The notes under the pieces were generated by a model, which made no database searches, was not told the DNA's origin, and saw only the letters and a list, made by a program, of their open reading frames with translations. Of a stretch of 26,201 bases of DNA, positions 600-25,386 are shown in pieces. The stretch comes from a virus: positions 1-26,201 of IMG/VR virus record IMGVR_UViG_3300027714_000106; one strand, written 5' to 3'. How positions within the stretch are numbered: position 1 is the stretch's first letter; each line of letters starts with the position of its first letter. The position numbers were made by a program, and so were the translations under genes.

Positions 600-950
600 A
601 TGGATGCAGCAGTACAGCTTATTACTGAACTAGGTTTTCCTATTGCTGCTGCTCTAGGATTGGGTGCTTTTGTCTGGAAGCTTATTAATAGAATTATTGA
701 TGGCATGGAAGTGAAAGTAGATGTCTTAGACGAAAAGCTAGGGACAATTATTAATTCTATGGAAGGCAGACTAGGTGGCAAACTTGACAGTCAGCATGGT
801 ATTTTAGTAGCATTGATAGATAGGGTGCGTTCATTGGATAACGAAATCATAAGACAAGACACTATGATTAAGACAATTCTAGGCGTTCCGCAATTAATCA
901 ATATTGATAAAATAGCGAAGGCAGACAGAGATGACCAAAGGAAAGACTAA
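600..950 (+). CDS. membrane-anchored coiled-coil phage protein, holin-like
   Basis: A 116-residue protein with one membrane segment at about residues 11-29 (LGFPIAAALGLGAFVWKLI) followed by a long charged helix and the segment LIDRVRSLDNEIIRQD, typical of a coiled coil. I recall similar short proteins in marine phages near lysis genes; a holin or membrane-anchoring role is inferred. No clear ribosome-binding site precedes the ATG. Its 3' end overlaps csgF by 20 bases, which links the curli-like genes physically to a phage gene and argues against a chimeric junction here. It could also be a partner of the secretion module. Confidence 0.7.
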   Translation: MDAAVQLITELGFPIAAALGLGAFVWKLINRIIDGMEVKVDVLDEKLGTIINSMEGRLGGKLDSQHGILVALIDRVRSLDNEIIRQDTMIKTILGVPQLINIDKIAKADRDDQRKD

Positions 951-1437
951 CAAGGATAAGGAAGAAGCGGCAAAGGTAAGAATATTTGCTTTTCTAGTTT
1001 TTGCTTTTGGTATTATGATGGCCTTTATAATAGCTCAAAACGCTCAAGCAGATCAGATTACACATAAGTTTAAATCTCCTTCATTCAATGGAATGAATAC
1101 CTCTAGTCATTATTTAACTATTGAAAACCAGGAATTTAATAGAAGAAAGACTATTAAAGACGAGATCAAGGCCGCCCTAGAAGAGGCTGAGAGAGACAAA
1201 GAAAACTCTACAGTTCAAAGGTTTTTAAGAAACTTTGAGAGTCGTGTATACGCTGAATTAAGCAGGCAGTTAATTGCTAATCTGTTTGGTGAAACACCGC
1301 AAACAAGTGGAACTATAACCTTAGAAGGTAATACAATAGTTTACAGTTCAGACGGAACATATCTAACTTTAACCATAACCGAAGCCGATGGAACAATTAC
1401 CACTATCAAGATTCCTCTGGGTTCCTTTACTTTTTAG
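931..1437 (+). CDS. csgF: CsgF-like curli assembly factor
   Basis: A 168-residue secreted protein. Residues 1-40 form a signal peptide with a long charged n-region, a hydrophobic core and an AQA cleavage site. The mature N-terminus DQITHKFKSPSFNGMN matches the CsgF start, the segment that in E. coli binds inside the CsgG channel and forms its second constriction. The rest also fits CsgF: the helix FESRVYAELSRQLIANLFG (102-120), SGTITLEGNTIVY, and a terminal beta region with LTITEADGTITTIKI. In bacteria CsgF couples the CsgG pore to fibre nucleation at the cell surface. The F-then-G order matches csgDEFG operons. The gene overlaps its upstream neighbour by 20 bases and csgG by 50. Confidence 0.9.
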   Translation: MTKGKTNKDKEEAAKVRIFAFLVFAFGIMMAFIIAQNAQADQITHKFKSPSFNGMNTSSHYLTIENQEFNRRKTIKDEIKAALEEAERDKENSTVQRFLRNFESRVYAELSRQLIANLFGETPQTSGTITLEGNTIVYSSDGTYLTLTITEADGTITTIKIPLGSFTF

Positions 1438-2266
1438 TATATCTAGCTGCTCAATCTTTGATCAGTATCAAGATACTATAGATCAAAGACACAAAGCAGG
1501 TGATGTAGTAAAGATAAGTGATCTTCAATCAAAAGAATTAAAAAATGTAAACATACCTGTTAGTAGGCCTATAGTAGCGGTATATCCAACATCATTCACA
1601 GATCAAACAGGACAACGTAAAAGTAATAGCTCGTTTGCTTTGTTCTCTACAGCTATAACTCAGTCTCCAAATGCACTATTAATAAGGGCCTTAAAACACG
1701 CAGGAGATGGCCAATTTTTTAGAGTGGTTGAAAGGATTGGCTTAGATAACTTAGTAAAAGAAAGACAGCTAATTAGATCGGCAAGAGAAAAGTTTGCAAA
1801 AGACGATGAAAGTAAAAACGTTCCACCCCTACTATTTGCAGGTGTCTTGCTAGAAGGTGCTGTAATAAGTTATGATAGTAACTTGACCACGGGTGGGATG
1901 GGTGCTAGGTATCTAGGAATAGGAACAAGCATTCAGTATAGAGAAGACAATATAACAGTTAGTCTTCGTATGGTATCAGTCGCAACTGGTGAAATACTTA
2001 TAGAAGTATTAACACAAAAGACAGTTTTTAGTTACGGTAAATCAGAAGACGTATTCAGGTTTATTGAGGCAAATACAGAATTAGTTGAAATTGAGTTAGG
2101 TAACTCAAACAACGAATCAGCAACAATAGCGCTTATGAAAGCTATAGAGGCTGCCGTATTAGAAATTATAAATATCGGTTACGATAGGAGCTTTTGGAAT
2201 GAACAAATTGAAATTAAAGAGCCTGATTGTGTTGATGATGACTGTATCACTTCAATCGGCAGATAA
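1388..2266 (+). CDS. csgG: CsgG-like curli secretion pore lipoprotein
   Basis: A 292-residue outer-membrane lipoprotein. The N-terminal signal has lipobox ISSC with acylated Cys21. Family blocks are clear: VAVYPTSFTDQTGQRK (63-78), FSTAITQSPNALLIRALK, VVERIGLDNLVKERQLIR, LLFAGVLLEGAVISYDSN (148-165), GGMGARYLGIGTSIQYREDN, and VSLRMVSVATGEIL. Mature length (about 272) is near that of bacterial CsgG. CsgG forms a nine-subunit outer-membrane channel for unfolded curlin. By eye, F86 aligns with the constriction Phe of E. coli CsgG, while the neighbouring Tyr/Asn positions differ. The signal peptide is encoded inside the 3' end of csgF in the +1 frame. Ribosome-binding site is weak, so coupled translation is likely. 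Confidence 0.93.
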   Translation: MEQLPLSRFLWVPLLFSISSCSIFDQYQDTIDQRHKAGDVVKISDLQSKELKNVNIPVSRPIVAVYPTSFTDQTGQRKSNSSFALFSTAITQSPNALLIRALKHAGDGQFFRVVERIGLDNLVKERQLIRSAREKFAKDDESKNVPPLLFAGVLLEGAVISYDSNLTTGGMGARYLGIGTSIQYREDNITVSLRMVSVATGEILIEVLTQKTVFSYGKSEDVFRFIEANTELVEIELGNSNNESATIALMKAIEAAVLEIINIGYDRSFWNEQIEIKEPDCVDDDCITSIGR

Positions 2267-2930
2267 CGAAATATTCGTAGATCAAAGCGGTGTGTCAGCT
2301 AATATAGATTTAGAACAGCTAGGCATATCAAACATTATTGCAGGTCTTGGTTCTTCAGCAGGAAGTCTTACAGCTTTTGATCTTGACGGAACAAGTATGA
2401 CACTTGACGTTAATATGATTGGTGCGACCAATAAGTTCTTTGGTGATATTTGGGCAGATAGCTTTACTGGTGCATATAACTTTATAGGTTCTACCAACAC
2501 CTTCACAATCCAGATAGATCCCAGCAATACTTACGGAGCAGACAGCTCTAACCAAAACGTAGCTGTTACAGGTACTGGTAATACTTTTACTTTAAATCAA
2601 GGGACATCTGCATTAGCAGCTACTTTAGATTTAGATTGGATCATTCAAGGATCTAATAACACTGTTGTTTCTAATATCAATATTGATAATGCTACTAACT
2701 ATATGGATATAGATGGTAGTGATAATACAGTTAACTATACAGGCACAGGCGTATCTGCAAGTGCTGGTGGGTATTTTTGGCTAGATCACACAGGTGGTCA
2801 AAGAACATTTAACATTAAACAACTGAGTACCCAAGACAATGATTGGCTTAAGATTATTTCTGTTGGCGGCAATGCTTCTAGTTCCGTTTGCGTTATCCAA
2901 AACGATCAAGGAACCTCAATCGGCTGTTAG
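2199..2930 (+). CDS. secreted curlin-like repeat protein, candidate CsgG substrate
   Basis: A 243-residue protein with a signal peptide at 1-21 (cleavage near SLQSA-DNE) and AGGAG eight bases before the ATG. The mature protein is low in charge and rich in Asn, Gln, Ser, Thr and Gly. It shows irregular curlin-like turns with a G-x-x-N core: LGISNII, IGATNKF, IGSTNTFTIQ, GTGNTFTLNQG, IQGSNNTVVSN, DGSDNTVNY. In curlins such units stack as strand-turn-strand rungs. Repeats are less regular and more widely spaced than in CsgA, so this is a divergent curlin or beta-solenoid. Two Cys residues (231 and 243) lie near the C-terminus. It follows csgG with a 68-base overlap, so it is the natural candidate cargo. 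Identity as an amyloid subunit is inference. Confidence 0.7.
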   Translation: MNKLKLKSLIVLMMTVSLQSADNEIFVDQSGVSANIDLEQLGISNIIAGLGSSAGSLTAFDLDGTSMTLDVNMIGATNKFFGDIWADSFTGAYNFIGSTNTFTIQIDPSNTYGADSSNQNVAVTGTGNTFTLNQGTSALAATLDLDWIIQGSNNTVVSNINIDNATNYMDIDGSDNTVNYTGTGVSASAGGYFWLDHTGGQRTFNIKQLSTQDNDWLKIISVGGNASSSVCVIQNDQGTSIGC

Positions 2931-3957
2931 TATTGGTGGTATATCTGAGCTAAATGGCTCGGCACAAATAGTAAGAGATGAGCCACTAGACGCAGAATTA
3001 GAATTATCTATACAAAGCAACGATGAAGCTGTTACTACCAATGGTAGGATGGCAATCAAGTTTCTTGACGACTCAGTAGTAAGGCTTACAGAACACTCAC
3101 AACTCTTAATAGATGAATATATCTATGATCCAGATCCAAGCAAATCTAAGATGGCTCTTACCTTTGGACTTGGTACAGCTAGGTTTATTACAGGCAATCT
3201 AAATCGTATAGATAAGAAAAACATTAGCTTACGAACCCCTACAGCTAATATAGCCATAAGAGGTACAGACTTTACAGCTACAGTAGATGAGCTAGGCCGC
3301 AGTCTTATAATACTTTTACCTGATGCCCTGGGATTATCTAGTGGTGAAATACTAGTAACTACTGCAATGGGTACAGTAACCTTAAACAAACCATTTCAAG
3401 CAACTACAGTATCTGTATTTGAATCAAGCCCTAGCAGTCCAGTGATCTTAGATTTAACCTTAGACATTATTGATAACATGCTTATTGTTAAACCACCTAA
3501 AGAAGATATGGAGATTAACCAAGAGGTATCAACTGTCTCTGAAAAAAACATCTTAGACTTTAATGATCTTGATATAGATTATTTAGCAGAAGACTATCTT
3601 GGGGACGATGAGCTTGAGTTTAACGAGTTAGACATCAATTGGTTAGATGTTAACTACTTAGAAGACCTGCTTAATATATTAGATGCGCTCGCTGTAGATG
3701 ACGATAAAGATTCTTTAGCAGAAGCATCTGCCACCAATATAACAGGTACTTTGCTTGGTAGAGATGCAGAGACTCAGATAACAACTCTAATAACTGGCAA
3801 TATTGTAAGCATGAGAAGGGCAGTAAATGACTATGCTAGATTAGACCTCAATGGAAGTGACAGCTATACTGTTATTATTATTCAAGATGGTGTTAGTAAT
3901 GTTGTTAAAATTAACGGCGGAGGGGACTCGGTTATAACCATAACTCAAGGCGAATGA
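2839..3957 (+). CDS. periplasmic/secreted FecR-domain protein with C-terminal curlin-like repeat
   Basis: A 372-residue protein with a clear signal peptide (1-20, ending FALS). Residues about 60-185 form a FecR-like domain: TNGRMAIKFLDDSVVRLTEH, FGLGTARFITG, LRTPTANIAIRGTDFTATVD. Residues 235-285 form an acidic segment with internal repeats of the type LDIDYLAEDYL / LDINWLDVNYL. The last 32 residues (SYTVIIIQDGVSNVV then INGGGDSVITITQGE) look like one curlin rung with Q-x-G-x-x-N and a closing I-T-Q-G. FecR domains are known from periplasmic signalling, and FecR-like proteins occur near CHASE2 cyclases. The start sits 92 bases inside the preceding gene, and the signal peptide makes this start convincing. 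Function is inferred: sensor, nucleator or secreted partner. Confidence 0.85.
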   Translation: MIGLRLFLLAAMLLVPFALSKTIKEPQSAVSIGGISELNGSAQIVRDEPLDAELELSIQSNDEAVTTNGRMAIKFLDDSVVRLTEHSQLLIDEYIYDPDPSKSKMALTFGLGTARFITGNLNRIDKKNISLRTPTANIAIRGTDFTATVDELGRSLIILLPDALGLSSGEILVTTAMGTVTLNKPFQATTVSVFESSPSSPVILDLTLDIIDNMLIVKPPKEDMEINQEVSTVSEKNILDFNDLDIDYLAEDYLGDDELEFNELDINWLDVNYLEDLLNILDALAVDDDKDSLAEASATNITGTLLGRDAETQITTLITGNIVSMRRAVNDYARLDLNGSDSYTVIIIQDGVSNVVKINGGGDSVITITQGE

Positions 3958-5705
3958 ATAAGTTAATACTTCCGATTCTTGCAATACTATCCTTGCCATT
4001 AGTATTCCAATCAACACCTACAGAGATACTTAAATTAAAAATCTTTGATGCCTTTGTAACAACTCCAGAGCCTAGTGGTAATTTTGTAGTATTAAATATT
4101 GAAGAGGGAGATGTAGCTAGAGAAGGAGGTTGGCCTATACCAAGAAGAAGTCTTGCTCAAATACAAGTTGATCTTATTAACAAGGGAGCCATAGGAGTTG
4201 GCTGGGTTATAAGCTTTCCTCAAGCAGATAGGATGGGAGGCGATGAAGTCTTTGCACAAACCCTAGGCTACACTAATTCTGTATTAGCAATGTTTGAAAA
4301 TCCAAACGGACAATACCCAAAAACTACAGGCACAGTTATTAAAGGAAAGAATCCTGGTGGCATACCCACTCAAGGAGTGGTTCAAAACATTAAGATACTA
4401 CAAGAAAATTCATCTCAAGGAATTGCATCTGCTCCAGTAGATATAGATAACCTGGTTAGAAGAATACCTTTGTTATTAAAAACTCCAGATGGATATGTCC
4501 CTGCTTTTGGAACAGAAGTATTAAAAGCATTAACAGGAGCAAAAACTTACATTATCACTACAAATGATAATGGTATCCAAGAGATATCAGTCAGAGGAAT
4601 ACCACCAGTTAAAACAGATAGTCTTGGTCGTAAATGGATTAGCTGGGTAGACACACCACAAACTAATTTAAAAGACATGGACGTTGCAAATAAATTTGTT
4701 TTCATTGGAACAACGGCCAATGGAATTATGCCTCAAGTGGCAACTCCAGTTGGATTATTAGAACCTCATAAGATTCAAGCTGCATTATCTGAGTCAATTC
4801 TTATAGAAAACTCTCCACGTATTCCAGACTTTGCTCTAGCGTTGGAAATTTTAATTTTTACAATTTTCGTGTCATTGACATGGTTTGTGATTAACTATCT
4901 AGGTATAACTAAGGGCGTAAGCATAGCTATTATTTTACTCTTCACTACGGCGCTCTCAGGAGTTTTTAGCATCCAAAAGGGCCTTTTAATAGACTTTTCA
5001 TGGACTTTCATCTCACAATTCATAACTGGAGCTATTGCCTTCTATTTAAACTTTAGAAAGCAGTTTAAATTGCGTCAACAGATCAAAAAACAATTTGAAC
5101 ATTACTTAGACCCAAGACAAGTTAAGAGATTACAAGACAATCCAGAGCTACTAAAACTTGGTGGCGAGAAAAGATACGCTACATTTTTATTTACAGATGT
5201 CAGAGGCTTCACTAGTCTTTCAGAAAAACTACAACCAGAAGAAGTTACTGAGATTATGAATAAGGCATTAACAGTACAAGTAGAATGTGTGCAAAGAAAT
5301 GGAGGCATGGTAGATAAATTTATAGGAGATGCTTGTATGGCAATTTTTAATGCTCCCATGGATTTAGAAGACCATGAAAACAAAGCAGTAAAGACTGCTA
5401 TTGAAATGCAAGAAGCAATAAAAGAACTTAACAAAGAACTATCCCATGAAATAGCAATTGGAGTAGGGGTAAATACTGGCGAAGCAGTTATCGGCAATAT
5501 GGGTTCAAGCACTAGATTTGATTATTCTGCTATAGGAGATGCAGTTAATACAGCAGCTAGGTTAGAGTCTGCAACCAAAGAAGCAGGAGTGGATATATTA
5601 ATTGGCGAAAATACTGCCCAAAGTGTTAATTATAAGTTAAAATCTTTAAAGGCAATGAAAGTTAAAGGTAAGGCAAAAGCTTTAAAGATATATACAATAG
5701 AATAA
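3954..5705 (+). CDS. CHASE2-domain adenylate cyclase (class III)
   Basis: A 583-residue inner-membrane protein. An N-terminal helix (3-18) leads into an extracytoplasmic CHASE2 domain (about 25-285; VVLNIEEGDV, WPIPRR, FVFIGTTANGI). Three membrane helices follow (about 292-314, 318-338, 344-366), then a linker and a class III cyclase domain (407-583). Catalytic residues are present: metal ligands D415 (FLFTDVRGFT) and D459 (DKFIGDA), base-recognising K455 and S525 (YSAIGDAVN), and transition-state N532 and R536. Lys with Thr/Ser at these places is typical of class IIIb adenylate cyclases, so cAMP is the expected product. CHASE2 is a known periplasmic sensor domain of unknown ligand. The start overlaps the FecR gene (ATGA). 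Confidence 0.93.
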   Translation: MNKLILPILAILSLPLVFQSTPTEILKLKIFDAFVTTPEPSGNFVVLNIEEGDVAREGGWPIPRRSLAQIQVDLINKGAIGVGWVISFPQADRMGGDEVFAQTLGYTNSVLAMFENPNGQYPKTTGTVIKGKNPGGIPTQGVVQNIKILQENSSQGIASAPVDIDNLVRRIPLLLKTPDGYVPAFGTEVLKALTGAKTYIITTNDNGIQEISVRGIPPVKTDSLGRKWISWVDTPQTNLKDMDVANKFVFIGTTANGIMPQVATPVGLLEPHKIQAALSESILIENSPRIPDFALALEILIFTIFVSLTWFVINYLGITKGVSIAIILLFTTALSGVFSIQKGLLIDFSWTFISQFITGAIAFYLNFRKQFKLRQQIKKQFEHYLDPRQVKRLQDNPELLKLGGEKRYATFLFTDVRGFTSLSEKLQPEEVTEIMNKALTVQVECVQRNGGMVDKFIGDACMAIFNAPMDLEDHENKAVKTAIEMQEAIKELNKELSHEIAIGVGVNTGEAVIGNMGSSTRFDYSAIGDAVNTAARLESATKEAGVDILIGENTAQSVNYKLKSLKAMKVKGKAKALKIYTIE

Positions 5706-5706
5706 T

Positions 5707-5928
5707 ATGAAAAGAGATTATAAAAAAGAATACAAGAATTTTCACAGCAAGCCTGAAGAAAAAAAGAATAGAGCTATGAGAAATGCAGCTAGAGCAATCA
5801 TGAAAAAACTTGGCAAAGCATTTACTGGTGATAACAAAGATGTTGCACACAAAGACGATAACCCAAAAAATAATAAAAAATCTAATTTAAAAATGCAGAG
5901 CAAGTCTGCAAATCGTTCAAGAAAGTGA
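5707..5928 (+). CDS. small basic HNH-like phage protein
   Basis: A 73-residue, strongly basic protein starting one base after the cyclase stop. The C-terminal half, GDNKDVAHKDDNPKNN and SNLKMQSKSANRSRK, resembles the core of HNH-type folds (D-H-x-D-x-N-P-x-N-N...SNL), but without a complete catalytic HNH set that I can confirm. I recall short proteins of this kind, with an N-terminal DYKKEYKNFHSKPE-type segment, as common in phages. It may bind nucleic acid; nuclease activity is doubtful. It marks the return to phage core genes downstream of the curli-like module. Confidence 0.65.
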   Translation: MKRDYKKEYKNFHSKPEEKKNRAMRNAARAIMKKLGKAFTGDNKDVAHKDDNPKNNKKSNLKMQSKSANRSRK

Positions 5929-5933
5929 GATTT

Positions 5934-6116
5934 ATGGCAACAACCAAAGAAGCTATTACAAAAATTGAAACGCACGAAAAAGAATGTTCTATCAGGTACG
6001 CTAATATAGAAAAAAGATTAGAAGATGGCTCAAGGCGTTTTGACAAGCTAGAGAATATGATTTGGGCAGTATATCCATTCATACTTGTTTCTTTAGTGCT
6101 ATCTAGGTTTGTCTAG
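5934..6116 (+). CDS. XhlA-like small membrane protein, holin candidate
   Basis: A 60-residue protein with an N-terminal amphipathic/coiled-coil helix (ITKIETHEKECSIRYANIEK, then RLEDGSRRFDKLE) and one C-terminal membrane segment (about 42-58, MIWAVYPFILVSLVLSRFV). This matches the layout of XhlA-type lysis proteins. ATG 5934 is preferred over the in-frame GTG 5925, which overlaps the upstream stop. Its stop overlaps the GTG start of the inner spanin. Position directly before the spanin pair and endolysin supports a holin or holin-partner role. The exact class is inferred. Confidence 0.72.
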   Translation: MATTKEAITKIETHEKECSIRYANIEKRLEDGSRRFDKLENMIWAVYPFILVSLVLSRFV

Positions 6117-6508
6117 TGAGTAAAGTTTTACTGGGTGTTGTTGGAGTTCTTTTTCTAGCCTGTATTGGACTTTGGTATCAAAACTCAAGTCTACAAGCAT
6201 TAAACCAAGCGTTTGAACTTAGAAATCAAGAACAGAAGTTAGCTATAGAGTCATTACAAAATGATTTCACAATACAAACACAAGGTTTATTGGCTATACA
6301 ATCGAGAAATCAAGAAATAGAGCAAGAAATGTCAAGGTACCTTGACATATTCAAAAGGCATAACTTAACTAAATTAGCCATAGCAAAGCCCGGACTTATA
6401 GAACCAAGAGTAAATAAAGGAACCAAAGATGTATTTGATAGCATTGAAGAAGATAGTCGTAACATCGACAGTCTTGATAATGGCTTGCAGTTGCAGCCTA
6501 ATACCTAG
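6116..6508 (+). CDS. inner-membrane spanin (Rz-like)
   Basis: A 130-residue protein starting with GTG (GTGAG overlap with the preceding TAG). One N-terminal membrane helix (about 4-22) is followed by a long predicted coiled coil (25-90) and the segment RHNLTKLAIAKPGLIEPRVN with KGTKDVFDSIEED. I recognise that KPGLIE...KGT..VFD block from phage Rz-type spanins of T7-like and related phages. Inner spanins span the periplasm with an outer-membrane lipoprotein partner and fuse the two membranes at the end of lysis. The partner is encoded in the overlapping +1 frame at its 3' end, the classical Rz/Rz1 arrangement. Confidence 0.85.
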   Translation: MSKVLLGVVGVLFLACIGLWYQNSSLQALNQAFELRNQEQKLAIESLQNDFTIQTQGLLAIQSRNQEIEQEMSRYLDIFKRHNLTKLAIAKPGLIEPRVNKGTKDVFDSIEEDSRNIDSLDNGLQLQPNT

Positions 6509-6797
6509 TAGAGAGGTAGAAATAATTACGAAGCCTATAGTAAGGACTATAGTGCAACCAATATTGCCAAGGGAGATAGATTTAAAGGACCCTTATTGGT
6601 ATGTAGTTTCTGAAAAAAACATAGATGAGTTTTTAGTAAAGATAGAAAAAGAACATGGAGACATTGTTTTTTTAGCTATGTCTGTTCCTGACTATGAACT
6701 TATGGCTTACAACATGCAGGAATTAAAGAGGTATATAAATGAGCTTAAAGAAGTTGTTGTCTATTATAGAAATGTTACTACCAAAAAAGAGGAATAA
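6429..6797 (+). CDS. outer-membrane spanin lipoprotein (Rz1-like), overlapping Rz
   Basis: A 122-residue lipoprotein that starts inside the inner-spanin gene (80-base overlap, +1 frame). The signal (MYLIALKKIVVTSTVLIMAC) ends in a lipobox-like L-I-M-A-C with Cys20, and a short Pro-containing region (PIVRTIVQPILPRE) follows. Outer spanins are usually shorter, so the roughly 80-residue extension (YWYVVSEKNIDEF onwards) is unusual and may be helical. The overlap geometry, lipobox and position before the endolysin support the call. No sequence identity to a specific Rz1 is claimed. Confidence 0.75.
   Translation: MYLIALKKIVVTSTVLIMACSCSLIPSREVEIITKPIVRTIVQPILPREIDLKDPYWYVVSEKNIDEFLVKIEKEHGDIVFLAMSVPDYELMAYNMQELKRYINELKEVVVYYRNVTTKKEE
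6725..6741 (+). promoter_or_regulatory. possible upstream ribosome-binding site and second start for the endolysin
   Basis: AAAGAGG at 6725-6731 precedes an in-frame ATG at 6739 by seven bases. The longer product would carry MSLKKLLSIIEMLLP followed by KKRNK before the normal start. The hydrophobic/amphipathic stretch is too short for a confident signal-anchor. The main start is still judged to be 6802. Confidence 0.3.
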
Positions 6798-7306: not shown

Positions 7307-7350
7307 TGGAGGGTCAACAGCCTTTTATGTGCATAGCAGTTGGCTCTCCA
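7307..7350 (+). promoter_or_regulatory. 12-bp hairpin just upstream of terL
   Basis: TGGAGGGTCAAC (7307-7318) pairs with GTTGGCTCTCCA (7339-7350) over 12 positions, two of them G-U pairs, around a 20-base loop. The G-U pairs are stable only in RNA of the + strand. The 5' arm contains the only strong ribosome-binding sequence in this leader (GGAGGG, 7308-7313), so folding would hide it. The hairpin ends four bases before terL ATG 7355 and has no U-run. Translational control of terL is the simplest reading; a DNA packaging site next to terL is an alternative. Confidence 0.6.
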
Positions 7351-7362
7351 CCTAATGCTTGA
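7327..7362 (+). CDS. possible 11-codon leader peptide overlapping the terL start
   Basis: ATG 7327 opens the frame MCIAVGSPPNA and stops at TGA 7360-7362, eight bases beyond the start of the terL ATG. It lies in the hairpin loop and 3' arm, with GGAGGG 13 bases upstream, which is rather far. terL has no ribosome-binding site of its own, so coupling through this short frame is plausible. Such short frames also arise by chance. Confidence 0.25.
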   Translation: MCIAVGSPPNA

Positions 7363-8839
7363 TTTAGAACAAATAAAGTCTTTTGATGTCTTATCTAAGG
7401 ATGAGCAGATAGAAGCACTTAAACTTATGCAGAGATGGAAGAATCTTAATGCTAGAGAAAGATGTAGAGATGACTTTTTAGAATTTGTTAAGTTTCATTG
7501 GGAAGGCTTTATTATGGGTAGACACCATAAGATATTAGCTGAAAAACTAAACCGTATAGCACAAGGCAAATGTAAAAGACTTATGGTTATGTTGCCACCT
7601 AGACACTCTAAATCAGAATTTGCATCAACCTATTTTCCTGCATGGATGATGGGACTAAATCCAAGTTTAAAAATTATACAAGCAACCCACACGGCAGAAT
7701 TAGCAGTAAGATTTGGTCGTAGAGTTCGTAACATTATTGATAGCGAAGAATACCAAACGGTTTTTCCTGATATAAGCCTATCGGGAGATAACAAATCAGC
7801 AGGTCGTTGGACCACTGACGATGGTGGTGAAGCTTTCTATTCAGGAGTAGGTGGTGCTATTACAGGTCGTGGTGCTGATTTACTTATCATTGATGACCCA
7901 CATTCAGAACAAGATGCTATGTCACCTACTGCTATGGATGCAGCTTGGGAATGGTATACATCAGGACCTAGGCAGCGTTTACAGCCCGGTGGAACTATAG
8001 TTCTTGTTATGACTCGTTGGAGTACAAAAGACTTAGCAGGTAGGCTATTAAAAAGACAATCAGAAACACATGCTGACCAGTGGGAAGTCGTAGAATTTCC
8101 TGCAATTATGCCTGACACTGATGAGCCTTTATGGGGTGAGTTCTGGAAGAAAGAAGAACTATTATCAGTAAAAGCATCATTACCAATATCAAAATGGAAC
8201 GCACAGTGGTTGCAAAATCCTACAGCGGAAAGTGGCTCTATTGTCAAAAGAGACTGGTGGCAGATATGGGAAAAAGAAGGAATACCAAAGTGTGAGTGTA
8301 TTATCCAAAGTTACGATACAGCTTTTAGCGCAAAAGAAACTGCCGACTATTCTGCAATAACTACATGGGGAATCTTTGACCCTGAAGATGGTGGTGAAAA
8401 TGCTGTCATTTTATTAGATGCAAGTAGACATAGAGTTGATTTTCCTGAGCTAAAAAAATTAGCCTTAGAAGAGTATAAATACTGGGAGCCTGATATTGTC
8501 TTGATTGAAGCAAAAGCAAGTGGAACACCACTAACGCAAGAGTTAAGAAAGATAGGTATACCCGTACAGTCTTACTCTCCAAGTAGAGGACAGGACAAGG
8601 TGGCAAGAATGAACTCTATTGCACCTATGTTTGAAAGTGGTATGGTATATGCAACAGAAGACGCTTTTGCAGAAGAGGTTATAGAAGAATTAGCAGCTTT
8701 TCCATTTGGTGAACACGATGACTTTTGTGATTCATCTACTATGGCTTTGATGCGAATTAGACAAGGTGGGTTGATTGAATTGAAGAATGATTACGAGGAT
8801 GAAGTGTCATTTGACAGAAAGGCATTAACATATTATTAA
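7355..8839 (+). CDS. terL: terminase large subunit
   Basis: A 494-residue DNA-packaging motor ATPase and nuclease. The ATPase domain has Walker A PPRHSKSE (81-88), Walker B LLIIDDP (176-182) and the motif VMTRWSTKDL. The RNase H-like nuclease domain shows its acidic residues: D321 (QSYDTAFS), E385 (IVLIEAKASG) and D455/D456 (HDDFCDSS). The motor drives DNA into proheads through the portal, encoded next. ATG 7355 is preferred to an in-frame TTG at 7340, which is buried in the leader hairpin. Neither has a clear Shine-Dalgarno. No small terminase gene was recognised in the window. Confidence 0.95.
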   Translation: MLDLEQIKSFDVLSKDEQIEALKLMQRWKNLNARERCRDDFLEFVKFHWEGFIMGRHHKILAEKLNRIAQGKCKRLMVMLPPRHSKSEFASTYFPAWMMGLNPSLKIIQATHTAELAVRFGRRVRNIIDSEEYQTVFPDISLSGDNKSAGRWTTDDGGEAFYSGVGGAITGRGADLLIIDDPHSEQDAMSPTAMDAAWEWYTSGPRQRLQPGGTIVLVMTRWSTKDLAGRLLKRQSETHADQWEVVEFPAIMPDTDEPLWGEFWKKEELLSVKASLPISKWNAQWLQNPTAESGSIVKRDWWQIWEKEGIPKCECIIQSYDTAFSAKETADYSAITTWGIFDPEDGGENAVILLDASRHRVDFPELKKLALEEYKYWEPDIVLIEAKASGTPLTQELRKIGIPVQSYSPSRGQDKVARMNSIAPMFESGMVYATEDAFAEEVIEELAAFPFGEHDDFCDSSTMALMRIRQGGLIELKNDYEDEVSFDRKALTYY

Positions 8840-8862
8840 TTTTATGGATATAATAGAAAACT

Positions 8863-11364
8863 ATGGCAATAGATAGACAACTAGGTACTGAAAACAATCC
8901 TGACATAATAGACCAAACTAAGTCTGTTGATGTTGGCGTGGATGAATTTAATATAGAAGCTCCGGAGCAAACCTTTGATGAATCAATGATTGATTCTATG
9001 GAAATTAACATTGGAGATGATGTTATTAGTTTTGATGAGCCAATGGAAGAACCACAAGAAGAGATACCATTTGATGCCAATTTGGTTGATTACATAGACG
9101 AATCAGTTTTAGGTAGCATCTCATCACAGCTTATTAATGCTGTAGAAAACGATAAAGAATCAAGAAAAGAATGGGAAAAAACATACACTGACGGTCTGAA
9201 ATACTTAGGAATGAGGTTTGACGAGCAGAGAAGTACACCTTTTGAAGGCTCTAGTGGTGTCATACATCCTATACTCGCAGAAGCAGTTACTCAGTTCCAA
9301 GCACAAGCCTATAAAGAACTTTTACCGTCACAAGGACCTGTAAAAACACAGATTATTGGTCAGAGAGACATGAACACAGAAATGCAAGCTCAAAGAGTTT
9401 GTGAGTTTATGAACTACTACATCATGAACGAAATGCCTGAATATGACCCCGATTTAGACCAATTATTGTTCTATCTACCATTGTCAGGTAGTGCATTTAA
9501 GAAAGTTTATTACGATGCAGCAAAAAACAGACCTGTATCAAAATTTATACCTGCTGAAGATATATTGGTTCCTTACGAGGCAACTGACCTATTAGGAGCA
9601 GAGAGAGTGACGCATATAGTGTCAATGAGCAGTAATGAGGTTAGGAAATTACAGCTTACTGGTTTCTATGCTGATGTAGAGTTACAAGACAACGAAACTA
9701 TTGTTCGTGACAATATATCTAAAGAAATAGACAAAATACAGGGTGTAGAGCCTGATTACACAGGTGACGAGCAGAGAAAATTGTATGAAATACATACAGT
9801 TGCAGAAATAGAAGGCTTTGAAGATTTAGATGATGAGGGCGAACCAACAGGTTTAAAAATACCTTATATCATCACAATAGACGATTCTTCACAGAAAATA
9901 CTCTCTATTAGAAGAAACTATGAGCCTGAAGACCCATTAAGAAACAAGATAAATTACTTTGTACAATACAAGTTTTTACCGGGATTAGGCTTCTATGGAT
10001 TAGGTTTATCACACATGATTGGTGGCTTATCCAAGGCATCTACATCTATATTAAGACAATTAATCGATGCAGGTACTTTAAGCAACTTACCAGCAGGTTT
10101 TAAAGCTAGAGGCATAAGAATTAGAGATGAAGCCTCACCACTACAGCCGGGTGAATTTAGAGATGTTGATGCTCCCGGTGGTGCATTAAAAGATTCTTTA
10201 ATGCCATTACCGTATAAAGAGCCAAGTAGTGTTTTATTCAGCTTGCTTGGATTATTAGTTGAATCAGGCAAAAGATTTGCATCTATAGCTGATATGAATA
10301 TTGGCGACAGCAATGCAGCTATGCCAGTAGGAACAACAGTAGCCTTATTAGAAAAAGGCACAAAGGTAATGAGTGCTATTCATAAAAGATTGCACTATGC
10401 ACAAAAAAATGAATTTAAAATATTAGCAAGAGTATTCCAAGAGTTCCTACCTCCTGTATATCCATACGAGACAGGTTCTGGTGCTAAAGAAGTAAAGATT
10501 GAAGATTTTGACAGAAAGGTTGATGTAATACCTGTATCTGACCCAAACATCTTCTCTATGAGCCAAAGAGTTATTATGGCTCAAGAGCTATTAACAATGG
10601 TGCAATCTAATCCTGAACTACATGGACCACAAGGTATTTATGAAGCATACAGAAGAATGTATGCAGCTTTAGGTGTAGATAACATTGAAACATTACTAAT
10701 GCCACCAGCTGACAATACTCCAAAACCAATAGATGTAGGTACGGAAAACAGTGGATTATTACAAGGTCTTCCTGCACAAGCTTTTGCTGAACAGAACCAT
10801 GAAGCACATGTAGAGGCACATAAAACATTGTTTTTAACACAGGCTGTACAAATGAATCCACAACTGCAATCTATAATAATTGCACACTGTATGCAGCATT
10901 TACAATTTATTGCTAGTAAAAGGGCAGAACAAGAAATACCACCTGAAGTGCAACAACAGATACAAGAATCTAATCAACAGTTGCAACAGTTGCCTCCACA
11001 AGAACAACAAGCATTACAACAGCAGATACAGAGCATTATAGAAACTTTCAGCTCTCCAATACTGGCTGAATTATCACAAGAATTTTTATCTTCGGTTCAA
11101 CCTCCACAACAACAAGACCCTCTAGTAGCTATAAGAGAACAGGAACTAGGCTTGCGTGATAAAGAGATTGATATGAAGGATAAACAATTTATGGCTAAAG
11201 AAGAACAAGATGCCATGGAAAGAGGAACTGAGCTTCAACTACAGCAACAAAAAGCTGACCAACAAGCCATGATTGGCAATGAGAAAAATGACATTGCTAA
11301 ACAAAGACTGGCACAACAAGCTGAGTTAAAATTAATAGACCTACAAGCGAGGATGAACAAATGA
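8863..11364 (+). CDS. portal protein
   Basis: An 833-residue portal, a size typical of podovirus-type portals (P22-like). After an acidic N-terminus (1-75), the core carries features seen in such portals: FEGSSGVIHPILAEAVTQFQ, YIMNEMPEYDPDLDQLLFYL, LSGSAFKKVYYD, and a YGLGLSHMIGGLSKA helix segment. The C-terminal 200 residues are Gln-rich and helical, with QQQ runs and a charged coiled coil, consistent with an extended barrel. The portal forms a 12-fold ring at one capsid vertex for DNA entry and exit. It sits 23 bases after terL and overlaps the next gene by four bases. Confidence 0.92.
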   Translation: MAIDRQLGTENNPDIIDQTKSVDVGVDEFNIEAPEQTFDESMIDSMEINIGDDVISFDEPMEEPQEEIPFDANLVDYIDESVLGSISSQLINAVENDKESRKEWEKTYTDGLKYLGMRFDEQRSTPFEGSSGVIHPILAEAVTQFQAQAYKELLPSQGPVKTQIIGQRDMNTEMQAQRVCEFMNYYIMNEMPEYDPDLDQLLFYLPLSGSAFKKVYYDAAKNRPVSKFIPAEDILVPYEATDLLGAERVTHIVSMSSNEVRKLQLTGFYADVELQDNETIVRDNISKEIDKIQGVEPDYTGDEQRKLYEIHTVAEIEGFEDLDDEGEPTGLKIPYIITIDDSSQKILSIRRNYEPEDPLRNKINYFVQYKFLPGLGFYGLGLSHMIGGLSKASTSILRQLIDAGTLSNLPAGFKARGIRIRDEASPLQPGEFRDVDAPGGALKDSLMPLPYKEPSSVLFSLLGLLVESGKRFASIADMNIGDSNAAMPVGTTVALLEKGTKVMSAIHKRLHYAQKNEFKILARVFQEFLPPVYPYETGSGAKEVKIEDFDRKVDVIPVSDPNIFSMSQRVIMAQELLTMVQSNPELHGPQGIYEAYRRMYAALGVDNIETLLMPPADNTPKPIDVGTENSGLLQGLPAQAFAEQNHEAHVEAHKTLFLTQAVQMNPQLQSIIIAHCMQHLQFIASKRAEQEIPPEVQQQIQESNQQLQQLPPQEQQALQQQIQSIIETFSSPILAELSQEFLSSVQPPQQQDPLVAIREQELGLRDKEIDMKDKQFMAKEEQDAMERGTELQLQQQKADQQAMIGNEKNDIAKQRLAQQAELKLIDLQARMNK

Positions 11365-11792: not shown

Positions 11793-11993
11793 ATGGATAA
11801 ATATGATTTTATTCATGTGGTCCGTAGAGATTTAGATGAAAGGTTAGAACAAATAAGAGATATCTTAATGTCTAATGGCATTGCAGATATGGAAAAATAT
11901 CAATTTTTAATGGGAGAAATTTCTGCATTATCCTATATTCATGATAAGATAAAAGAACACTTACATGAAAAAGGAGAGATTGATGAAAAGTGA
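11793..11993 (+). CDS. small helical protein of the portal region
   Basis: A 66-residue acidic/basic helical protein (RDLDERLEQIRDILMSNGIA and MGEISALSYIHDKIKEHL). It starts three bases after the preceding stop, and its 3' end overlaps the GroES-like gene by 11 bases. The pattern of two amphipathic helices suggests a small oligomer. Its position between portal and scaffold genes suggests a head-assembly accessory; nothing more specific can be seen. Confidence 0.7.
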   Translation: MDKYDFIHVVRRDLDERLEQIRDILMSNGIADMEKYQFLMGEISALSYIHDKIKEHLHEKGEIDEK

Positions 11994-12435
11994 AAAGAAG
12001 AAAGATATTGAGATAGAGCAAGAAGATACTATTAATTTAGATAAAGCTTTTGTTGAAGAAGACACTAGAGTTTTAGACCCTAGCCTTTTAGACAAAAACA
12101 TTCTTGAAAGGATGCCTCAACCAACAGGTTGGCGTTTATTGGTATTGCCTTACAAAGGTAAGGGAGTATCAGAAGGTGGAATCCAATTAGTAAAGGAAAC
12201 CATTGATAGAGAAACCCTAGCAACTGTTGTTGCCTATGTTGTAGCCATGGGTCCTGACTGCTATAAAGACAAAAAAAGATTTGAGTCTCCGTGGTGTGAA
12301 AAAGGAAGATGGATATTAATCGGTAGATATGCAGGTTCTAGGTTTAGGTTAGCTGATGAAAGCGAAGTTAGAATTATAAATGATGACGAAGTCATAGCTA
12401 CTATTTTAAACCCTGACGATATTGTTTCAGTATAA
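11983..12435 (+). CDS. GroES-like co-chaperonin
   Basis: A 150-residue protein with an acidic extension (1-45), then a Cpn10 fold: PTGWRLLVLPYKGKGVSEGG (family start and mobile loop region), IQLVKETIDRETLATVVAYV (strand pairing), VAMGPDCY, KGRWILIGRYAGSRFRL and VRIINDDEVIATI, matching GroES GKYAGTEVK and EDDILAVI blocks. Phage co-chaperonins such as T4 gp31 replace GroES on host GroEL to fold capsid proteins. Its place between portal and capsid genes fits that role. ATG 11983 is chosen because AAGGAG (11971-11976) lies six bases upstream; an in-frame ATG 11965 precedes it. Confidence 0.88.
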   Translation: MKSEKKKDIEIEQEDTINLDKAFVEEDTRVLDPSLLDKNILERMPQPTGWRLLVLPYKGKGVSEGGIQLVKETIDRETLATVVAYVVAMGPDCYKDKKRFESPWCEKGRWILIGRYAGSRFRLADESEVRIINDDEVIATILNPDDIVSV

Positions 12436-24624: not shown

Positions 24625-25386
24625 GTGTTTGCACAAACTAAACAAGAGCAAGAATACGAATTAAAAAATTTATTATTAGGCTTTGCTTCAGACTGGTATG
24701 TTGAAAAAGATACTTTAGAGAAGGCTAAGGCTACATTGCCTCATTTAAGTGACTTCTATAATGGCGTAACTGATTCATTAGACGACTTGCCATTACAATC
24801 TATTATTGAAGAACCTCTCAAAGATGTTTATACAGTGCCTTTGTTCTCTAAAGAGCTTTGCAATCTTTTAGTTAATGAAATGCATAACATGACAGATTAC
24901 TTTGGATTCGAGCCAAATGAAGAAGAAGATGAGCTAAGACAAATACCTGAGATAGTTTTGTATGAAAAATGTCCACAGCTTTATCACTCGTTGATGCAAG
25001 TGGTAGATTCTGTAATTAATCCAATATTGTTAAGTATATGGAACAGGCATGTATCAGGTGGTAATATACAGATAGCTAACTACAATGTAAGAGATAAGAA
25101 ACAGGGAGCTTGGCATCATGACGCAAGCTCTGATATTAGTATAGTAGTGCCATTAAACACTGGAGATTACGAAGGTGGTGGTACTGAGTTTATGAAAAAA
25201 GGAACAGTTGAGCCTTTGCCTACAGGCAATGCTTTAATCTTTCCCAGTCTAACTCACATGCATAGAGGATTACCTGTAATAGATGGAGACAGGTACTTAT
25301 TGGTTTTTTGGCTTGTTTGTCATGAAGAGTCTAAGGAATATATGAAAGAATTTGTGCAAGAAGTTAGTCAAAACCATGTTAAATAG
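24625..25386 (+). CDS. 2-oxoglutarate/Fe(II)-dependent oxygenase
   Basis: A 253-residue protein starting with GTG (no better start nearby). The C-terminal part is a prolyl-4-hydroxylase-like double-stranded beta-helix: metal ligands H164 and D166 (AWHHDASSD), distal H213 (LTHMHRGLPV), and R223 (GDRYLLVFW), the usual 2-oxoglutarate anchor. The central block YEGGGTEFM matches the family's YEGGEL-type strand. The N-terminal 70 residues are an acidic helical extension of unknown role. Phages carry such oxygenases; substrates proposed for the family are protein or nucleic acid side chains. The substrate here is unknown. Confidence 0.88.
   Translation: MFAQTKQEQEYELKNLLLGFASDWYVEKDTLEKAKATLPHLSDFYNGVTDSLDDLPLQSIIEEPLKDVYTVPLFSKELCNLLVNEMHNMTDYFGFEPNEEEDELRQIPEIVLYEKCPQLYHSLMQVVDSVINPILLSIWNRHVSGGNIQIANYNVRDKKQGAWHHDASSDISIVVPLNTGDYEGGGTEFMKKGTVEPLPTGNALIFPSLTHMHRGLPVIDGDRYLLVFWLVCHEESKEYMKEFVQEVSQNHVK

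Follow-up and report, generated by a model that had tools for sequence, protein, structure and literature searches.

The DNA window analysed here is the whole of IMG/VR virus record IMGVR_UViG_3300027714_000106 (26,201 nucleotides), a 26-kb virus fragment without a replication region. At positions 600-5705 it carries six open reading frames (ORFs) that form a single overlapping run on the + strand. The first (600..950) encodes a 116-aa protein with one transmembrane (TM) segment and a C-terminal coil, and has no Pfam or NCBIfam match. It is followed by the genes of CsgF (931..1437; PF10614, E 7.5e-16, 58.9 bits against a cut-off of 25.8) and of the outer-membrane pore CsgG, which has a lipobox-like N-terminus (ISSC) (1388..2266; PF03783, E 7e-49). 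Next come the genes of a curlin-like secreted beta-solenoid protein, the putative cargo, with a signal-peptide-like N-terminus (2199..2930; assigned by homology to a protein of phage Melnitz), of a secreted FecR-domain protein with an acidic linker and a C-terminal tail suggestive of curlin (2839..3957; PF04773, E 1.7e-9), and of a fusion that joins a CHASE2 receptor, with three TM-like segments, to a class III adenylate cyclase (3954..5705; PF05226, E 4.8e-26; PF00211, E 7.2e-25). The first ORF overlaps csgF by 20 bp, and the later junctions overlap, in order, by 50, 68, 92 and 4 bp. The Pfam scores of CsgF, CsgG, FecR and the CHASE2-cyclase are well above the curated cut-offs. An earlier reading made from the letters of the window (the sequence-only reading) had named the last five genes as one overlapping + strand run, and Pfam and homology searches place them just there. 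Family matches and recurrence in related loci also bear out its view of a phage-borne curli-type module: such an export module is really present, with a cyclase active site that is predicted to be intact.

Residues 49-275 of CsgG align to the E. coli CsgG structures 4uv2/4uv3 (E 8.5e-47). A csgG-like gene is also found in OR851715.1, an unannotated 1.5-kb 'Salmonella phage' record that is possibly host DNA. The fourth ORF had been called curlin-like, and homology supports this even though its own score is below the Pfam cut-off: by BLASTP it matches the 'curlin associated repeat protein' of Melnitz (E 2e-15), and the curlin-repeat homologue in Melnitz passes PF07012 at 26 bits. Residues Q29, G31, Q40, G42 and N45 of the cargo are invariant over two phage families at about 25% identity, a pattern that is the curlin hallmark and that predicts two N-terminal half-repeats. 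On a repeat profile built from 557 bacterial curlin repeats, with units chosen by motif, all 16 non-redundant cargos score >5 bits, as opposed to 0.7% of shuffles. The AlphaFold2 model of the cargo consists of all-beta repeats (pLDDT 80.8), and a second structure aligner matched it to beta-solenoids such as SufB/SufD (Z 16-17). Foldseek matched nothing at E <0.001, and curlin structures were absent from the matches listed, an outcome that we do not count as evidence against a curlin fold.

The FecR protein begins with a hydrophobic, signal-peptide-like segment from residue 1, and its FecR domain, which starts at residue 65, matches the fold of FecR/PupR-type domains with a probability of 1.00. 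The layout of FecR-type iron-citrate regulators, i.e. an N-terminal cytoplasmic anti-sigma segment and a TM segment before the FecR domain, is not found in this protein. Its tail, at about residues 343-371, resembles one curlin repeat; Y343, Q349, I368 and Q370 of the tail are invariant. The 31-aa tail has no Pfam match at E up to 10, therefore it was scored with the custom repeat profile and shuffles: the median was 4.8 bits for 26 non-redundant tails, -3.2 for FecR bodies and -0.6 for shuffled tails, and 46% of the 26 tails exceeded 5 bits, versus 1.2% of the shuffles. We regard the curlin-like nature of the tail as suggestive only, because the profile units were chosen by motif, shuffling breaks strand alternation and the structure model is poor in this region. 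Neither a curlin-like tail nor the rest of the phage C-terminal region occurs in the 10 bacterial FecR partners sampled.

The cyclase carries the full class III signature, i.e. two metal-binding Asp, an adenine-selecting Lys with Asp, and the transition-state Asn and Arg. Among 161 relatives D415, K455 and D459 are kept in all, N532 in 158, R536 in 160 and D523 in 147. A FecR gene lies within a few kb of CHASE2 in 10 of 20 bacterial (alphaproteobacterial) CHASE2 loci, which is not an unbiased rate as these loci are mostly among the strongest CHASE2 matches. The pair is also known from a biofilm-regulating operon of Burkholderia (BiofilmReg; PMC5192318). None of the 25 bacterial CsgF loci has a FecR, CHASE2 or cyclase gene near csgFG; bacterial operons were sampled by CsgF because a CsgG pattern scan gave mostly phage-like contigs. 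Judged by gene neighbourhoods, FecR plus CHASE2 is a bacterial pair that is independent of curli, and since it recurs in bacteria and never beside the bacterial csgFG genes sampled, the phage module resembles a combination of a curli export block and a receptor pair of a known type. CHASE2 was present in 20 of 117 genomes of the SAR11 order (a label taken from the title of the metagenome-assembled genome, MAG, that was used as the centre of the sample). In one of them (G105, locus L216) a FecR gene lies about 1.3 kb downstream of the gene of a bacterial CHASE2-SpoIIE protein.

The sequence-only reading treated the membrane protein gene upstream of csgF as an ordinary flanking phage gene. The gene is indeed there, but a homologue precedes csgF in 176 of 177 related loci, often as two copies, so we count it as a member of the module. 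PMC9599517 labels the gene at this place a histidine kinase, 'sometimes two'; that it is the same gene we assume from position and copy number. HisKA, HATPase or any other kinase family found no match in the 116-aa ORF or in 14 relatives. The gene published as a 'histidine kinase' probably encodes a small membrane protein. All 15 family members examined match phrog_18771, and five of them also match phrog_4898 'holin' weakly (best 4e-5), which makes the family weakly holin-like.

Mapping of the neighbourhoods, as the sequence-only reading had proposed, showed that the module recurs widely. The same gene order is found in hundreds of viral contigs, and nearly all of 252 related loci hold the gene set. 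Since homology to csgG or to fecR served to collect these loci, the gene used for a given locus says nothing about co-occurrence and the others alone count; with this in mind csgF co-occurs in 192/193 viral loci, the cargo gene in 209/212, fecR in 172/173 and the cyclase gene in 112/114. The dN/dS ratios (nonsynonymous to synonymous substitution rates) among divergent pairs are mostly 0.1-0.2, those of the cargo gene included, which indicates purifying selection; estimates with saturated or near-zero dS were set aside. The + strand segment 578..5698 is 93.7-94% identical to contigs L003 and L004 and 86% to L005, whereas the immediate flanks are only 68-77% identical. Because identity drops in this way at both ends, we read the whole cassette as recently exchanged as one block between related phages. 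A pattern scan of bacterial genomes for phage-type CsgG relatives gave seven module-like contigs and one distant relative (L093). The seven (L086-L092), assigned to Maricaulis, Neomarinimicrobiota, Rhodobacteraceae, Flavobacteriaceae and Pelagibacter MAGs, are probably phage contigs that were binned into bacterial genomes.

Expression late in infection had been suggested for the window, and a promoter element speaks to this in part of the module family. Of 36 non-redundant pelagimyophage loci, 31 have the motif TATAAATA, a T4 late-promoter element (PMC2984593), shortly before the first gene or csgF, while permuted motifs other than shifted copies reach about 5 loci at most. Late expression of the myophage modules is thus likely. 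No such promoter stands at the window, where scans for sigma-70 promoters and terminators were no richer than shuffles, and late expression may here be inferred from the myophage promoters and the neighbouring late genes. A 2020 study had found no late promoters in pelagimyophages; a general survey of them now looks feasible. In addition, a G+C-rich, terminator-like hairpin often precedes TATAAATA upstream of the pelagimyophage modules (L222-L301).

Directly behind the cyclase gene lies an HNH-like small ORF (5707..5928, + strand; HNH_3, E 9.6e-5). The sequence-only reading was right about its presence, but the match reaches 22.4 bits against a Pfam cut-off of 24.8, and the ORF behaves as a variable insertion: it is missing from many relatives, and in L002 and L005 nothing HNH-like stands between the cyclase gene and the next, 63-aa one-TM ORF (5925-6116). 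In relatives, homologues of the latter stand at two places, ahead of the module and behind the cyclase gene. The + strand flank continues, as had been claimed, with Rz-like (6116..6508; phrog_739, E 3e-11) and Rz1-like spanins (6429..6797; phrog_812, E 3.2e-11), a phage lysozyme/endolysin (6739..7245; PF00959, E 1.6e-48) and terL (7340..8839), all of them outside the module. Farther away are a GroES-like co-chaperonin (11965-12435; phrog_3188, E 1.2e-14) and a 2-oxoglutarate (2OG)-Fe(II) oxygenase-like protein (24625-25386; phrog_61, E 3.1e-31). TerL is 55-61% identical to that of HTVC023P-type phages (61% to 023Pt_psg01, 55-57% to HTVC027P and HTVC023P), and the major capsid protein is 58-60% identical to those of the same three phages. 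DSL-LC04, with a listed gammaproteobacterial host, is equally close (58% terL, 61% capsid). By these markers the phage is an HTVC023P-type-like ocean phage related to SAR11 phages; its host may be suggested from the cultured relatives, two of which infect Pelagibacter.

Taken together, we consider the module a selected, exchangeable cassette that would provide a minimal, late type VIII export system with its own cyclic AMP (cAMP) sensor in infected SAR11-type cells, and we give this reading a probability of roughly one half. The cargo and the FecR protein, judging from their signal-peptide-like N-termini, would reach the periplasm via the host Sec pathway. CsgG and CsgF belong to the families of the outer-membrane pore and would assemble into one, through which the cargo might be exported and coat or tether the surface of the infected cell. 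Because FecR and CHASE2 recur as a gene pair and the FecR tail resembles curlin, we speculate that FecR signals the state of export or of the cargo to the periplasmic CHASE2 domain and so sets the cAMP output. The likeliest benefit would be an altered cell surface, which retains nearby cells or virions or blocks rival phages, rather than lysis. Few cells in the ocean are as abundant as SAR11 bacteria; the cassette is retained and exchanged time and again by their phages, although the host has nothing like it.

Several points weigh against this reading. Firstly, fibre, pore and cAMP are predictions from the genes, and the authors of the Melnitz study saw no clumping in infected OM43 cultures (PMC9004378). 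Secondly, the repeats of the cargo are degenerate, scoring on their own 10 bits against the Curlin_rpt cut-off of 20.7, and the FecR tail scores modestly and falls in a low-confidence region of the structure model. Thirdly, CsgE, which the sequence-only reading had already failed to recognise, is found in none of 12 module-bearing phage records (window included) and in none of the 117 SAR11-order genomes, with a positive E. coli control. Fourthly, TATAAATA precedes none of the 107 podophage modules, that of the window included. Finally, the 117 SAR11-order genomes contain no class III cyclase, cyclic nucleotide (cNMP)-binding domains occur in only seven of the 117 (six of them within an 870-aa frame) and in none of the 12 phage records, and the phage cyclase may therefore be without a transcriptional receptor. 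This makes it more pressing to ask what cAMP produced by the phage would do in a cell without an obvious receptor.

Among the alternatives, lysis control fares best, even though we find it rather unlikely. Here CsgG and CsgF would act as a gated pore or a pinholin-like device that times release, as was proposed for Melnitz (PMC9004378). Rz, Rz1 and lysozyme adjoin the module in the window and in many podophage loci (homologues are near it in 62-89 of them), and 5 of the 15 members examined of the first gene's family match 'holin' weakly. However, the fetched flanks of the pelagimyophage loci contain no homologue of Rz, Rz1 or lysozyme, yet their modules are fully conserved. This weakens the lysis reading, and the position 'inside the lysis region' loses its value as a functional clue. 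Holins act on the inner membrane, whereas CsgG is an outer-membrane pore, and such a pore would not need a curlin cargo, FecR or a cyclase; a dedicated lysis role is thus disfavoured. A stricter form of the signalling idea, in which FecR with its curlin-like tail is a dedicated export sensor that attaches to the cargo, or assembles together with it, and so switches the CHASE2 cyclase, we hold to be unlikely; the phage would then run a cAMP signal coupled to export, via a new receptor, in a host without class III cyclases and mostly without cNMP-binding proteins.

Quite improbable is an uptake pore, suggested in PMC7029224 and PMC9599517, in which an ungated CsgG channel would import nutrients or cofactors and the cargo would be incidental. 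The lack of the CsgE gate in the phage records and SAR11-order genomes sampled would suit such a channel, but purifying selection acts on the cargo gene, which stands behind csgG in 209 of 212 loci, and CsgF, FecR and the cyclase are left unexplained. The suggestion, again in PMC9599517, that FecR is an iron-citrate regulator of the module draws on the Pfam FecR domain and on fold similarity to PupR and anti-sigma domains. We find it very improbable, as the protein, with its signal-peptide-like start, has no space ahead of the membrane segment in which a cytoplasmic anti-sigma region could fit, FecR beside CHASE2 receptors is common in Alphaproteobacteria, and the C-terminal region, with its curlin-like tail, is unlike those of the bacterial FecR partners sampled; these features point to a bacterial receptor pair of a known type, not an iron regulator, as the signalling half. 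The chance that a bacterial csg operon was misassembled onto a phage contig is negligible: the similarity to L003 and L004 does fall exactly at the module ends, but 30-mers spanning the two ends are found in 2 and 5 other, independent contigs, relatives align continuously through the upstream junction, the module recurs, and the complete isolates HTVC008M and Melnitz carry the same genes (GenBank records). The sequence-only reading was therefore correct in rejecting a chimeric join, but not in arguing from the 20-bp overlap of csgF, which does not test it because the overlapped gene belongs to the module.

A minimal export cassette with a receptor pair remains the reading that we prefer, and it can be compared with known systems. 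The kind of module is already known, since it was described in pelagimyophages and Melnitz, i.e. myophages of SAR11 and OM43 (PMC7029224, PMC9004378), and in 2022 in nine HTVC023P-type genomes (mSystems; PMC9599517). What is new here is the block swap, the late promoters of the myophages, the relabelled 'kinase', the curli-independent FecR-CHASE2 pair, the FecR tail, and the finding that SAR11-order genomes are without class III cyclases and mostly without cNMP-binding proteins. The statements that can be tested are that myophages transcribe the module late and as one unit, that it moves as one block, that its signalling half is a receptor pair and that its first gene encodes a small membrane protein.

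The E. coli csgBAC-csgDEFG and alphaproteobacterial type VIII secretion system (T8SS) operons share with the window the CsgG and CsgF homologues and a curlin-type cargo, putative in the window. They differ in that the window has no CsgE and has degenerate cargo repeats, and in that FecR and the CHASE2 cyclase, both present in the window, adjoin csgFG in none of the 25 bacterial loci sampled. The bacterial FecR and CHASE2 pairs are similar in as much as a secreted FecR-domain protein is encoded beside a CHASE2 receptor, whose output part can be a cyclase, a SpoIIE-type domain or a histidine kinase; the FecR partners sampled have no counterpart of the phage C-terminal region and no link to csgFG. 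HTVC008M and Melnitz have the order CsgF-CsgG-curlin-FecR-curlin2-CHASE2 cyclase behind homologous upstream one-TM proteins; they are myophages with a second curlin gene that the window does not have. The Melnitz paper reports no csgA/csgB (PMC9004378), while its GenBank record (L083:6878-7597, 8656-9672) encodes two curlin repeat proteins, both above the Pfam cut-off. Pelagimyophage curli clusters mostly stand behind TATAAATA and in no case beside lysis genes, unlike the module of the window. With respect to the HTVC023P-type T8SS, the window lacks the second curlin gene, has an HNH-like ORF after the cyclase gene and, in place of the upstream 'histidine kinase', encodes a protein without a kinase domain; neither a curlin-like FecR tail nor the FecR-CHASE2 pairing is found in the available text of that account (PMC9599517). 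CsgE is absent in both, terL and capsid put the window in the same lineage, and the two systems share the order of short upstream protein, CsgF, CsgG, curlin repeat protein, FecR and adenylate cyclase.

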